From: Malus domestica
Taxonomy: Eukaryota > Streptophyta > Magnoliopsida > Rosales > Rosaceae
DNA length: 64,000 bases
Direction: 5' to 3'
Assembly (NCBI RefSeq): GCF_042453785.1
Contig: NC_091665.1
Location: 27,886,501 to 27,950,500, forward strand
Shown here: one piece after another, positions 45,130 through 57,060 of the stretch
Layout of the letters: each line of letters begins with the position of its first letter
Position numbering within the stretch: the stretch's first letter is position 1
The notes under the pieces: generated by a model
Seen by the model: the letters and a program-made list of their open reading frames with translations, nothing else
Database searches by the model: none
What the model was told of the DNA's origin: nothing
Position numbers and translations under genes: made by a program

Positions 45130-45911
45130 TAGAAACTGAATATCTTTCTTTCATCTCGCCTCACGACCTTCTCTCTCTCGATCCTCTTCGCTTTCGCTCC
45201 CAATTTCTGATCTTTCTCTCTGAATTTTGCTGTGATTCTTCATTGTTCTTCTTCGATTGTCGCTTCGATCTTGTTGTTTGGTGTATTTCTCGCTGCAATC
45301 AGCCATGGCGACTCCGTCAAATTCGTCTTCTCCTCTTGAGTCGGTGCAAGCTCCAAACCCTAATTCGTCAAATTCTGCCATGTCTTCGTCTTCATATGCT
45401 TCTCTAACGATCCAAAACATTGGAAGTATGGTGCCAATTAAACTCAAACGCTCCAATTATCTCCCCTGGCGTGCTTTATTTGCTCCAATTCTGCGCAGGT
45501 ATAAGCTCCTTGGCATCATTGATGGTATTGAGGTCTGTCCATCACCTCTTCTTTCTGATCGCTCTATCAATCCCGACTTTGACATTTGGAATGAGAAAGA
45601 TCAGAACCTTCTCATCTGGTTGAATTCTACTCTGTCTGAAGAAGTGATTCCTTTCACTGTTGGTGTCTCGTCGTCTCGGGATCTATGGATCAAGCTTGAG
45701 CAGCGCTTTGGAGGAGTCTCTGATGCTCACATTCATCAGTTACGATCTCGTCTCCAATCCATTCAGAAAGGTTCACAGTCAATTTCTGATTATCTTCAAC
45801 AAATCAAGGAAAGCTCTGATACCATATAGAAACTGAATATCTTTCTTTCATTCAATACAATCAGATAATTACACAAAGTTTGATATATATATTGTGGGCA
45901 TTCTAACAGAT
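45130..45911. mobile_element. Chimeric Copia fragment: gag with inverted LTR/PBS
   Basis: A plus-strand gag fragment (45305-45829) is bounded on both sides by 'atagaaactgaatatctttc'. On the right this is the inner end of a short LTR in the opposite orientation: read on the minus strand, 45911-45827 runs TGTTAGAATGCCC... to ...CAGTTTCTATA, followed by a perfect primer-binding site TGGTATCAGAGC (45826-45815). A real element should have gag on the same strand as its primer-binding site, so interior and LTR are inverted relative to each other. The junction shares 'tctgat' with the gag sequence. Confidence 0.6.
45305..45829 (+). pseudogene. Truncated Copia gag
   Basis: 174 residues starting MATPSNSSSPLESVQAPNPN. 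It contains the Copia gag N-terminal signature MVPIKLKRSNYLPWRALFAP and the following helical gag region (WIKLEQRFGGVSDAHIHQLR, LQSIQKGSQSISDYLQQIKE). It then stops in the inverted LTR sequence (SSDTI, stop). Full Copia gag would continue to a zinc knuckle and pol, which are absent. A CT-rich leader (45160-45300) precedes it, as expected for retroelement RNA. Confidence 0.8.
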
Positions 45912-46340: not shown

Positions 46341-48247
46341 ATACGGCTAAGGCTGTTGTTTCCTTTGTGGCCGAAAAGCTTGGTGACTTCATAATTAAGG
46401 AGGCAAGTTTCTGTGCGGAGTTGGCGATCAAGTTAAGCTTGCACAAACCGAGCTAAAAATGATGCAGGGCTTGTTGAAGGATGCAGATGCAAGACAAAGA
46501 GATAAAGAAGTAATACGTGTTTTGGTTGCTGAAATTAGAGATGCTGCTTATAATTTGGAGGATGTCAGTGAAAACTTTGCCTTGAAGGTGACTTCCAAGT
46601 TCCAAGAGGAAAGGAGGAGGTGTTTAGAGTTTTATGAAAAGGTTCCGTTCCATCTTGATTGAAGGAGTCAATCTTCATGAGATAGGGTCAGAAATTGGGA
46701 ACATTACAACCAAATCTCTCATTTGAGGTTGAGTAGTTTGCAGGCTCACAACATAAGGGACATAAGGGAGAGCAGCGGTTACACGTTAATGAGAGGAAGC
46801 AACAACTAAGGCGAACCTAGAATGTGATGTTGTCGGGTTAGAGAAGAGTGTCAAGGAGTTGGTTCTGCATTTGGTAAGAGATAAACATCACCGCCTCCGA
46901 GTTCTTTCTATATGGGGGATGGGTGGCTTGGGCAAGTCCACTCTTGCGAAACAGATTTACCATCATAACGAAATTAGATGCAGTTTTAGCTCTTTTGCTT
47001 GGGGTGTGTATATCTAAACAGTTTCAAGTGAGAAATGTTTGGCAAGAGATTTTAACGAAACTCATTTCTGCTACCTGTGAGCAAAGAAAAGAAATCGCTT
47101 GAATGAGTGATGCTGAAATAGCCAAGAAACTTTGTCTTCTCCAGAAAGATAAAAGATGTTTGGCGGTTCTTGATGATATTTGCAGTATTGAGGCATGGGA
47201 CTCCTTGAAAGCTGCATTTCCATACGAGGAAACGAAGAGGAGCAGTAGCGTTGCATGTAAGAAACTTGATGTGAGTTTCATCAAACATTTGACAAGTGTA
47301 ATATTATAAGTTAAGTGAGTTATATATATTGAACTTAGCCTAACTAATGTAATAATGCAGTTTCCGGAATTAAGACTTGGAGGGAAACTTAAGGAGATTC
47401 AAATTAATTTGAATCGGACAGTTACATTGAAGATGTAACTGGTGATAACTCCTTTCTTGATGGGAGGAAGGAACTACTACAAGTATATATATAGCGATAT
47501 GGTCCCTTCTCTTGGTGTGAAAAACATGGTCCCATCAATATTCTTCTCACAGGACTTCTAGCTACTAAGAACACAGTTGACGAGTGGGATGCGGTGCATA
47601 ATAAGAATGTTTATGCAAACATAAGGAGAAGCAAAGGCCAAGAAGAAGAGTACACAGGTGCAACGTGGCTGTTAGCATTGAGTTATGACGACTTACCGTA
47701 TCATTTAAAGCCATGCTTGCTTTATTTAGTAGGTCAGTTTCCTGAGGATTATGAGATTCCAGTGAATAAGTTGGCTAACCTATGGACACCAGAAGGTTTT
47801 ATTTCTTTAGCCCAACATAGACAAAGTTCAGTCGAAACCATGGAAGGTATAGCATATAACTGCTTAACAGAGTTGGTCGAAAGGTGTGTGGCTGAAGGTG
47901 GGGAACGAGGTTCAGTTAGGAAGATAAAAACCTGCCGTATCCATGATCTTATGCGACACATGTGCTTGTTGAAGGCAGAAGAGGAGCATTTCCTCCAAAT
48001 CGCCAATTTTATGGCTAGAAACAAGGTAATTGGTAAAGTTCAAGGAGTTGCTATATTCTTGGACGAGAAGGTTGAAAAATTGGTTCCATCAAAAGATGAA
48101 GGAGATGTCCACCTTAGATCGCTCTCATACTTTGGCTCAATTCGTTGGATCGCAGGAAGTAAAAAGTTACTACGATCAATGTTCAAAGATTTCAAAGATA
48201 TCGAAAAGATACCGATCAAAGAAATGAAAGAGTTTGCATTCTTTTGA
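46341..48247 (+). pseudogene. CC-NBS (NLR) resistance gene, decayed
   Basis: Pieces of a CC-NBS-LRR immune receptor in order but in different frames. 46341-46660: Rx-type N-terminal domain (AVVSFVAEKLGDFIIKEA, one frameshift, then QVKLAQTELKMMQGLLKDAD and EIRDAAYNLEDV). 46850-47015: P-loop with IWGMGGLGKSTLAKQIYHH. 47103-47310: kinase-2 (LAVLDDICSIEAWDSLKAAF). 47540-48247: ARC2/winged-helix part (ALSYDDLPYHLKPCLLYLVG, IHDLMRHMCLLKAEEEHF). Several stops and shifts, no RNBS-B or GLPLA block, and no leucine-rich repeats. Closest remembered relatives are At1g50180/RPP8-like genes of the type common in apple. Not able to make a receptor; the last open part (218 codons) could only give a fragment. 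Confidence 0.85.
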
Positions 48248-48508: not shown

Positions 48509-48967
48509 CTAATTTGAGCTTAAAGCAGCAAACCCACCACCTTTCATCATCTGCTTAAACTCCTTGAAATTCACCCTCCCATCACCATCACCATCAACCT
48601 TCTTTATCATGATCTTGCAATCCTCCAATGTCCTTCCTTGCTTCAGCCCCAAGGAAGATAAAACCGACTGCAGCTCGTCCACCGTGATGAATCCGTCTCC
48701 GTTCCGATCAAACACATTGAACGCCTCCCTCATGTCTTCCTCCTCGTCCCTCTCGCCTATGATCGTCTGGTACAACGCCCCGAATTCATCAATGTCCACG
48801 AACCCATCTCCATTGACATCGATTTTTTCAATCATCTGGATCAAGTCTTTGTCCGGAATGTAAATCCCCAGTTTCTCCAACGAGTCCCTCAGCTCCTTCT
48901 TCGTGATCCGCCCGTCCCCGTTCTGATCAAACATCTGGAAAACCCGCCGTACCTCCGCCCTGTCCAT
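48509..48967 (-). CDS. Calmodulin-like protein (CML3/CML7 type)
   Basis: 152 residues, intronless, with four EF-hand loops: D14[11 protein letters not shown]25, D50[11 protein letters not shown]61, D87[11 protein letters not shown]98 and D125[11 protein letters not shown]136. All loops have Asp at position 1 and Glu at position 12, so all four should bind calcium. Extended linkers ([28 protein letters not shown]) and the C-terminus [13 protein letters not shown] match Arabidopsis CML3 (At3g07490) and CML7 (At1g05990) as I remember them. Cytosolic or nuclear calcium sensor relaying to unknown targets; no lipidation motif is visible. Start: first in-frame ATG ([10 protein letters not shown]), equal to the family start. 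Syntenic position argues for the At3g07490 counterpart. Confidence 0.93.
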
Positions 48968-49400
48968 TAAAATTGCTAAAAAAAATAATGAATCACCACC
49001 AAATAGTACGATTCAAAATTCGATCGGGATATTGAGGAACCAGCAAAAAAAAAACCCAAATGGTAAGAAAGATTTCAATTTTTGGAAGAAGTGAGGAATG
49101 GAGGGTAGAAAATATGGGAAAAAACCCTGAGGAAAAAAATGGTTGGGAAACTTGGTTAGTACCGAACTGAGAATTTGTGGTGGGAGTTGTACGGAGTTGT
49201 TACAAGGAAAAAGGAGGTGAAAAATCGATTAGGGTCAAACGTTTGTACGTTGATGATTGATTGGCTTAAAATTTTGGTTTTTAACGTTGTCAGTTGAAAA
49301 ACGCGGGTATTGGTTTGAAGTCGTTTGGAATGAAACCCGCCGTTTTTGCGGCGCTGCGTTTATAATTGTGGCGCCGTATTTTCTCGAATTAAGACTTGAT
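48968..49400 (-). promoter_or_regulatory. Upstream region of the calmodulin-like gene
   Basis: Contains the 5' leader; no clear TATA box found. A GC-rich patch with 'gccgtttttgcggcgctgcg' lies at 49335-49360. Confidence 0.3.
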
Positions 49401-51000: not shown

Positions 51001-51159
51001 ATTTTTTTGAGCCTTAATGAGAAACTTCTAGTGAGACTTTATTTTCAGTCCAATCTCCAAAGTCTAAGATCTTTTTAGTCCCACCATTTTTAGCGTGCAA
51101 AGAATGTGTTAGAACTTGTTTGTTTTAATTCCAAATAGTAGCCCTTATTTATTTGTTTT

Positions 51160-51249
51160 AGAATCAGAAAGAACGTAGCGAAGAGATATTATTCTGATCA
51201 TGTTAAATCGATAGATCATCACCCTTTCACATCTCTTTCATCATTTTCT
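51160..51249 (-). ncRNA. Box C/D snoRNA, predicted guide for 5.8S rRNA A47
   Basis: A 90-nt minus-strand candidate. Terminal stem AGAA (51249-51246) with TTCT (51163-51160); box C ATGATGA (51244-51238); internal C'-like GTGATGA (51222-51216); box D CTGA (51167-51164). The 14 nt TTCGCTACGTTCTT, ending one base before box D, are fully complementary to plant 5.8S rRNA AAGAACGTAGCGAA. The nucleotide that pairs with the fifth base upstream of box D is A47, counting the Arabidopsis 5.8S from memory; A47 is a known 2'-O-methylated site in plant 5.8S. So motif, spacing and target agree. The alternative is to use GTGATGA as box C with no terminal stem; the target is unchanged. Function: directs fibrillarin methylation in the nucleolus. 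Confidence 0.75.
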
Positions 51250-51524
51250 TCATCAATCAAATTCAATTTACAGAAAATATCAAATTAAATTTAAGAAAAT
51301 AAAAACAAGTGTAATCCAACCATGTGCCCACAAAACCAACCAAAGTAATAGGGATAATGGGCGAGTAGTTGGATAATCTAGAAAAACTAGAACTCGATTA
51401 ATATTGCAAACGAAGAAATTGCCTCAAAACATCGACTGTTTAGGGACAGAGTGCGTTTGCTTAATATAATTATTAATTATTTATCAAACTTTATAAATTA
51501 AATTGGGGGAAATAAAGGAAAAGA

Positions 51525-51672
51525 AGATGTGACAGTAGTAAAAGGGCCTGAAGAATCAGGAGGAAGTCAGATTCAGGCGAGTGCTACTGCCGATTTGGAT
51601 TTCGCAAGGTTTGTAATTCATTTGGCTGGATCGTTGAATCGACACCCAGTCAAGAAGCTGAACTTGCTTACC
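51525..51672 (-). ncRNA. Box H/ACA snoRNA candidate
   Basis: On the minus strand, the 3' half folds into a classic H/ACA hairpin: lower stem CAGTAG/CTACTG, a pocket (CACTC and CCTTTTA), upper stem GCCTGAA/TTCAGGC, then ACA (51530-51528) two bases after the stem. The distance from the upper stem to ACA is 15 nt, the usual 14-16. A 5' hairpin is possible (GCAAG/CTTGC outer, CTGG...CCAG inner), but the hinge GAAATCCAAATCGG has no canonical ANANNA box. It would guide a pseudouridine; I could not assign the target. Lies between the promoter at 51868 and the C/D snoRNA. Confidence 0.5.
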
Positions 51673-51867: not shown

Positions 51868-51958
51868 ATTTATATAGAAAATTAGCAGGAACTAGGGTTT
51901 TCTTTTGCTCGAGTGGGCTCAGCCCTATAGACTTCAGACTAATTATTGTTCGGCCCAT
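51868..51958 (-). promoter_or_regulatory. Telo-box/site II promoter of the snoRNA unit
   Basis: Minus strand, upstream to downstream: ATGGGCC (51958-51952), GAGCCCA (51920-51914, a site II motif in reverse), telo-box AAACCCTAG (51900-51892) and TATA box TATATAAATA (51876-51867). This combination is typical of plant genes for snoRNAs and ribosomal proteins. Transcription would start near 51840 and run through a CT-rich leader to the two snoRNAs. No protein-coding exon was found downstream, which favours a non-coding unit. Confidence 0.6.
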
Positions 51959-55019: not shown

Positions 55020-57060
55020 GAAAAAGTGGTCTGTGGTATCTGGCTCTCGAGATTCGGAGAACGATGCCTCTTCGATTTTTGAGAAAGCAATCATGCTGGG
55101 GGTATGACTCTCGAGATTCGGAGAGCAGTGTCTCTTCGATTTTTGAGGAAGTAATCATGTTGGGAGTCTGGCTCTCGAGATTCGGAGGGCGGTGCCTCTT
55201 CGATTTTGGAGCAAGCAATCTTGTTGGGAGTGTTGTCTCGAATGTGAGTAAAGGTTGGGCATGTTTGCTAGTCTACCTTGCCACGAAGCACAAAGGTTAA
55301 CACACAGGGACTTTCCAATTATCCAGCAATGGTACTGTTCCTTTACCCTCTCTTCGATTTTGAGAAAGTAGTCATGTTGGGAGTCTGGCTCTCGAGATTC
55401 GGAGGACGGTGCCTCTTCGATTTTGGAGCAAGCAATCTTATTGGGAGTGTTTTCTCGAATGTGAGTAAAGGTTGGGCATGTTTGCTAGTCTACCTTGCCA
55501 CGAAGCACAGAGGTTGACACACAGGGACTTTCCAATTATCCAGCAGTGGTACTGTTCCTTTACAGTTGTGGGTAATAATATGGTAGCTAGACCTTCAAAA
55601 TTTATGTGTCTAAACTTTTGTTAGTGCTGTTTCTTTGCTATTCTTTTACCTTTCTTGGTCAGAGCGATGTAGTGGGAGCTGCAAGCTTCACGTGCTCAAC
55701 TTTGGCAGAGAACTTTGGCAAAGTTATTTGTGGTACCCATGAGCTATTGTTGCGTGTGGGAAGTGGGTGATTGAACAGTAAGATTCATGTGCTTTCTACT
55801 TCACCAGAAGTCTTCGACAGAATGCCCATAATTTCTGCAAAGCTGAGTGTGCGTGTGACAGGTGCTGACAAGGCTAGAAAAGTAGGTGCCTCTTCGATTT
55901 CTGAGATCGGCCCTCGTGGTCTCTGAGCAGCCCAGCTTTTGAGAAAGCGAGCGCCTCTTCGATTGATTCGGAGAACGATGCCTCATCGATTTTTGAGAAA
56001 GCAATCATGCTGGGGGTCTGGCTCTCGAGATTCGGGGAGCAGTGTCTTTTCGATTTTTGAGAAAGTAATCATGTTGGGAGTCTGGCTCTCGAGATTCGGA
56101 GGGCGGTGCCTCTTCGATTTTGGAGCAAGCAATCTTGTTGGGAGTGTTTTCTCGAATGTGAGTAAAGGTTGGGCATGTTTGCTAGTCTACCTTGCCACGA
56201 AGCACAGAGGTTGACACACAGGGACTTTCCAATTATCCAGCAATGGTACTGTTCCTTTACCCTCTCTTCGATTTTTAAGAAAGTAGTCATGTTGGGAGTC
56301 TGGCTCTCGAGATTCGGAGGACGGTGCCTCTTCGATTTTGGAGCAAGCAATCTTATTGGGAGTGTTTTCTCGAATGTGAGTAAAGGTTGGGCATGTTTGC
56401 TAGTCTACCTTGCCACGAAGCACAGAGGTTGACACACAGGGACTTTCCAATTATCCAGCAGTGGTACTGTTCCTTTACCCTTGTGGGTAATAATATGGTA
56501 GCTAGACCTTCAAAGTTTATGGGTCTAAACTTTGTTAGTGCTGTTTCTTTGCTATTCTTTTACCCTTCTTGGTCAGAGCGATGTAGTGGGAGCTGCAAGC
56601 TTCACGTGCTCAACTTTGGCAGAGAACTTTGGCAAAGTTATCTGTGGTACCCATGAGCTATTGTTGCGTGTGGGAAGTGGGTGATTGAACAGTAAGATTC
56701 ATGTGTTTTCTACTTCCCCAGAAGTCTTTGACAGAATGCCCATAATTTCCGCAAAACTGAGTGTGCGTGTGACAGGTGCTGACAAGGCTGGAAAAGGCTG
56801 GAAAAGTAGGTGCCTCTTCGATTTCTGAGATCGGCCCTCGTGGTCTCTGGGGAGCCCAGCTTTTGAGAAAGCGAGCGCCTCTTCGATTTTTGAGATCGGC
56901 CTTCGTGGTCTTTGAGCAGCCCAACTTTTGAGAAAGCAAACGCCTCTTCGATTTCTGAGATCAACCCTCGTGATCTCTAAGCAGCCCAGCTTTTGAGAAA
57001 GCAAACGCCTCTTCGATTTCTGAGCAGGCGCCTCTTCGATTTCTGAAGCTTCGTCGAGTG
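55020..57060. repeat. Three-level tandem repeat array
   Basis: A 217-218-bp unit ('tgttgggagtctggctctcg' ... 'tgccacgaagcacagaggtt') occurs at about 55156, 55373, 56070 and 56288. The pairs are themselves part of a 914-915-bp duplication (55156 to 56070; the 'gtgggtaataatatggtagc' segment at 55566 and 56481). A 65-bp unit follows at 56812-57030. The motif 'gcctcttcgattt' recurs throughout. Short open frames here are incidental to the repeats. Confidence 0.85.
56812..57030. repeat. 65-bp tandem repeat
   Basis: Units begin GCCTCTTCGATTT at 56812, 56877, 56942 and 57007 (exact 65-bp spacing), the last truncated. Each contains 'ctgagatcggccctcgtggt' and 'agcccagcttttgagaaagc' with few changes. 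Confidence 0.9.

Follow-up and report, generated by a model that had tools for sequence, protein, structure and literature searches.

What is encoded at positions 51252–51157, on the minus strand, of a 64,000-nucleotide (nt) window of Malus domestica DNA (contig NC_091665.1 of assembly GCF_042453785.1)? A preliminary description of this DNA had proposed a box C/D small nucleolar RNA (snoRNA) that directs 2′-O-methylation of 5.8S ribosomal RNA (rRNA) at A47. By the window we mean the whole stretch analysed, and the coordinates below are positions in it. Our analysis indicates that the locus is very probably such a guide (Table 1). The combination proposed, namely a box C, a box D, a terminal stem and a 14-nt antisense to 5.8S rRNA, is seen directly between 51252 and 51157, and the mature snoRNA probably spans about 51249 to 51160. 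A single nucleotide separates the antisense TTCGCTACGTTCTT from box D. A C/D guide needs an unbroken run of roughly nine pairs or more with its target, and 14 are present here; the rule that places the modified base five nucleotides from box D leads to A47, as the preliminary description had it, in the presumed 5.8S sequence by which positions are numbered.

The element is a member of a described family. When the whole window was scanned with cmscan against 4227 Rfam families, it gave the sole match above an Rfam gathering score: it aligned with RF00356 (snoR32_R81) at 69.2 bits, well above the curated cut-off of 45, with an expectation value (E) of 2.2e-8 and over model positions 1–98 of 98, with box C, box D and the terminal stem all in place. 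The Rfam check thus upheld the C/D candidate. The alignment extends over the full length of the family model and includes the consensus 5.8S antisense and box D; the window element departs from the consensus by substituted bases and short gaps in its central part, which includes the D′ region. Because the family consensus holds the same GCUACGUUCUUUCUGA, which comprises the 5.8S guide and box D and is identical in the two, the 5.8S guide is a trait of RF00356 as a whole. The name snoR32_R81 is in use for tomato (PMC4575465) and cotton (PMC11222342), and a family named snoR32, not necessarily this one, is listed as conserved among land plants (PMC5122169). ARAGORN found no transfer RNA in the whole window. 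In an Rfam scan of 1.2 kb around the locus, six of the eight matches had E values of 3.8–7.8, and we took these six as chance.

The literature bears out that A47 is 2′-O-methylated in plants, on which the preliminary description had relied. Two methylations were found in Arabidopsis 5.8S rRNA, A47 being one of them (PMC8053127 Table 1), and Table 2 of PMC11542601 gives the same modification as Am48 for tomato and as Am46 for tobacco. The assigned Arabidopsis guide of A47 is SnoR9, for which several gene variants are noted (PMC8053127 Table 1). The window element shares its predicted target nucleotide with SnoR9, and whereas Arabidopsis has several variants, a single exact guide word occurs in the genome of the window. 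The target stretch GATGAAGAACGTAGCGAAATG is present in this genome as well, in the ribosomal DNA (rDNA) fragment L003, one of five matches to RF00002 (39 of 16241 candidates scored). In the stretches of the four others that were inspected by eye, after a search of one strand, the motif is changed or missing, also in the best-scoring, L002, so these look like mutated copies. When the 9.5-kb surroundings of L002 (L007) were compared by megablast with presumed 18S and 5.8S sequences, no match resulted, and plant rRNA, sought by exact pattern in genome contigs and viral contigs, gave no match. The rDNA of L003 and of L009:501–5500 (contig C1) is partial and error-laden, about 90–92% identical to the presumed rRNA sequences, and adjoins a 5-kb run of N.

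Table 1 Features of the snoRNA locus and its upstream region (positions in the window)
Feature	Position	Strand	Basis or remark
Box C/D snoRNA gene, Rfam RF00356 snoR32_R81	51157–51252	−	cmscan, whole window
Terminal stem, 4 base pairs, AGAA with TTCT (3′ arm)	51249–51246 with 51163–51160	−	Rfam structure line
Box C, ATGATGA	51238–51244	−	sequence
C′-like box, GTGATGA	51216–51222	−	pattern; Rfam consensus at this place is GUGAUga
Speculative D′ guide, GTGATGATCTATC	51210–51222	−	pairs with 18S 1548–1560: 10 consecutive Watson-Crick pairs, 13 counting G-U
Putative D′ box, TCGA	51208–51211	−	+5 nucleotide is 18S U1554
D guide, TTCGCTACGTTCTT	51169–51182	−	14-nt perfect antisense to 5.8S rRNA 44–57; D+5 is A47
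Box D, CTGA	51164–51167	−	sequence
Probable H/ACA snoRNA, divergent relative of RF00545 snopsi18S-841/snoR66	51354–51461	−	sub-threshold Rfam match
H/ACA 5′ hairpin with pseudouridylation pocket	51399–51463	−	arms 51454–51449 and 51419–51411; hand-counted coordinates
H box of the H/ACA neighbour, ATATTA	51399–51404	−	15 nt from pocket (hand count)
Candidate target uridines of the H/ACA neighbour in 18S, AAAUUAGAG
Third, tentative H/ACA-like element	51525–51605	−	3′ hairpin then ACA (51530–51528)
TATA box, TATATAAA	51869–51876	−	motif count in window, 11
Telo-box, AAACCCTA	51893–51900	−	motif scan
Site II element, TGGGCT	51914–51919	+	motif scan
Site II element, TGGGCC	51952–51957	−	motif scan

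We then asked how many such guides the genome holds. The word CGCTACGTTCTT-N{0,3}-CTGA occurs at one place in the 651,096,769-base assembly, the window locus, and its reversed control occurs at none. With up to two mismatches the guide word was found at 34 places and its reversed control at 64, so that near-matches are no more frequent than chance would give; among the 20 places examined, an exact box C lay upstream in the window's copy only and in none of the 19 others. The RF00356 search of the genome, in which 54 of 409418 candidates were scored, returned the window locus as its one match, and a DNA search with a 121-nt query gave nothing beyond the window itself. These counts are to be read with the provisos that the assembly may be incomplete and that diverged copies may have escaped.

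The preliminary description lacked two points: that the family is already described, so that a plain Rfam scan suffices to find the element, and that the snoRNA apparently sits in a polycistronic unit with a telo-box/Site II promoter. The TATA box, telo-box and Site II elements, all read directly in the window, lie 617–705 nt upstream of 51252 as counted along the snoRNA's own strand, with the telo-box and Site II upstream of the TATA box and of the snoRNAs. Only one of the 23 telo-motif starts in the window, the one at 51900, has a Site II element within 150 nt (seven permutations of the telo motif, overlaps counted separately; 40 Site II motifs in the window). According to PMC4660826, a telo-box and Site II upstream of a TATA box mark plant promoters of polycistronic snoRNA and ribosomal-protein genes. 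The locus shares with the polycistronic snoRNA genes described there the succession of telo-box, Site II and TATA, followed by a snoRNA cluster within a few hundred nt, and no notable difference emerged.

About 100 nt upstream of the C/D snoRNA, on the same strand, lies what is likely, from its mechanism, to be an H/ACA guide. Its match to RF00545 scored 27.4 bits against a cut-off of 50 (E 0.019 when 1.2 kb was scanned and 0.089 for 5.5 kb), so that it falls short of membership in that family. The 5′ hairpin, the pocket arms and the H box region align with RF00545; in the right pocket arm AUUUCUU stands in place of the consensus AUUUGUu, and this change fits AAGAAAU of the presumed plant 18S rRNA. 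The 5′ hairpin folds with z −2.5 (2 of 200 shuffles equal it). Its pocket arms pair over 9+6 nt with the presumed 18S sequence TGAAGAAAT[UA]GAGTGC around U764, and none of 300 shuffled arm pairs scored equally; an alternative drawing of the arms did not exceed shuffles (214/300). A 5′ hairpin with an rRNA-complementary pocket and an H box within 14–16 nt are thus both present; the genome's own 18S fragment does not reach the U764 place. Pseudouridines 761 and 762 have been reported in this 18S expansion segment (PMC8351944); they may be the pocket's target uridines under a shifted numbering. The neighbour's 3′ half is irregular, shorter and non-canonical, with CCA at the aligned ACA place; an ACA occurs downstream of the neighbour, at 51325–51323, after another hairpin. 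The RF00545 search of the genome gave no match (54 of 46079 candidates scored, with no control match).

Further upstream, it is doubtful that the third element is an H/ACA-like RNA. The 3′ hairpin folds with z −3.2 (2 of 200 shuffles equal); its 5′ half, extending to about 51673, is unsupported (z 0.08). Rfam gave nothing for it up to an E of 2, and no convincing pocket target was found in the presumed 18S or 5.8S sequences, the two rRNAs with which all the guides were compared.

A 901-nt query spanning the unit found, in the same genome, itself, a place on the homeologous contig C10 (84%) and, on C2, a piece of 50 nt. Two blocks align on C10, one with the promoter region (78%) and one with the end of the third element (84%); collinearity extends along the flank through an EF-hand gene (85.5% over 1256 columns), and past the promoter block this comparison rests on BLAST blocks. 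On C10 the telo-box and the exact TATATAAA are lost and two Site II motifs are kept. Neither the C/D snoRNA nor its H/ACA neighbour was found there by Rfam over 2 kb, by BLAST or with 8-mers of the guide. The C10 counterpart of the third element is 84% identical over 157 columns, downstream DNA included. Because this counterpart folds weakly (−11.9 as against −19.6 kcal/mol), with its lower stem partly broken by eye, the case for the third element is weakened. The C2 piece (L014:1501–1549) matches the 3′ side of the H/ACA 5′ hairpin at 94% identity and stands alone in unrelated sequence; we rejected it as a snoRNA copy, since the left half of the hairpin is missing and Rfam gives no snoRNA match.

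How firmly does this evidence establish a working guide? Boxes on their own and antisense stretches of 10 nt are frequent, as would be expected if the features coincided by accident: the window contains 16 bare 10-nt antisense stretches to 5.8S rRNA, compared with a mean of 14.2 in shuffled sequence. The full set, however, in which the 14-nt antisense is preceded by a box C and followed within 0–4 nt by a box D, is present once in the window. None of 40 dinucleotide shuffles contains it, and none does when the antisense is relaxed to 10 nt; together with the Rfam E value this makes coincidence vanishingly improbable, in line with the preliminary description. A second reading takes the locus for a snoRNA pseudogene and places the working guide elsewhere. 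Plant snoRNAs are often multi-copy, as the variants of Arabidopsis SnoR9 illustrate (PMC8053127), and a search that scored so small a fraction of its candidates may have missed diverged copies. The boxes, stem and guide are nevertheless intact at the window locus, the promoter is complete, the exact guide word with box D is unique in the assembly, incomplete as that may be, and the 19 examined places among the 33 with one or two mismatches lack an exact box C upstream; we regard decay at this locus as very unlikely. The related C10 stretch without the snoRNA does count against conservation, by the test that the preliminary description itself had set. It appears that the C10 unit has decayed, one of two duplicates having been lost, and that the window holds the intact one.

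Given that the C/D snoRNA is in all likelihood functional, two further alternatives concern its context and its reach. The promoter could drive a host transcript that undergoes splicing, with a donor-like GTAAG (51671–51667) closing its first exon and the snoRNAs processed from the intron. A CT-rich leader does precede this GTAAG on the same strand, and the same promoter class serves ribosomal-protein genes (PMC4660826); yet a lone GTAAG is weak (a downstream exon was not searched for), and intergenic telo-box/Site II polycistrons are common in plants (PMC4660826). We consider the intronic arrangement unlikely, and, if true, it would leave the guide function unchanged. The other alternative is that the D′ region acts as a second guide, methylating 18S U1554 besides 5.8S A47. 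The pairing is contiguous over its full 13 positions when G-U pairs are allowed, the paired 18S stretch is also found in the genome's own rDNA, and U1554 methylation has been reported in 21-day Arabidopsis without an assigned C/D snoRNA (PMC11542601). Against this, when the inner region was shuffled, 8 of 150 versions contained a run of at least 10 nt against 18S alone; the match may be chance; the D′ box and register were picked after the fact; and the sites mapped for tomato, tobacco and 9-day Arabidopsis do not include Um1554 (PMC11542601). The stretch also overlaps the C′-like box, a good one that would be conserved anyway, which would explain conservation of the stretch. A second functional guide therefore seems very improbable. 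If it were real, a known snoRNA would, through a degenerate D′ box, serve an 18S site that seemed to have no guide.

The remainder of the window holds several further features. An open frame of EF-hand (calmodulin-like) type by Pfam (48509–49012, minus) lies downstream of the snoRNA on its strand and is conserved on the C10 stretch. Another open frame, at 47495–48247 (plus), has a plant disease-resistance winged-helix domain (WH_DRP) and is probably a gene fragment, and 45236–45829 (plus) gives a weak copia-type gag match (Retrotran_gag_2, 19.9 bits against a 27-bit cut-off), likely a retroelement remnant. Tandem repeat arrays with units of 64–65 nt and 217–218 nt occupy 55044–56481 and 56812–57024; judged by eye, two separate arrays have similar units of 217/218 nt.

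Transcription, processing, protein binding and modification at this locus we infer from sequence, as follows. RNA polymerase II would probably transcribe the unit from the telo-box/Site II/TATA promoter (51957–51869) as a longer precursor, from which the C/D snoRNA would be cut out and bound by the C/D core proteins. The D guide would then pair with 5.8S rRNA 44–57, allowing fibrillarin to methylate the 2′-O of A47. The H/ACA snoRNA is probably carried on the same precursor, and its 5′ pocket would direct pseudouridylation of an 18S rRNA uridine (U764 in the numbering used here).

The preliminary description was correct, and what it described is ordinary: a further member of an established snoRNA family, apparently in a typical plant snoRNA unit. 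The unit is of interest for its apparently decayed homeologous copy and for the proposal, improbable as it is, of a guide for the orphan methylation site 18S U1554. With one exact guide word in the genome, its annotation identifies possibly the sole guide in this genome for a plant 5.8S methylation, and a single-copy guide would make a good subject for knock-out, which is harder in a plant that keeps several variants.
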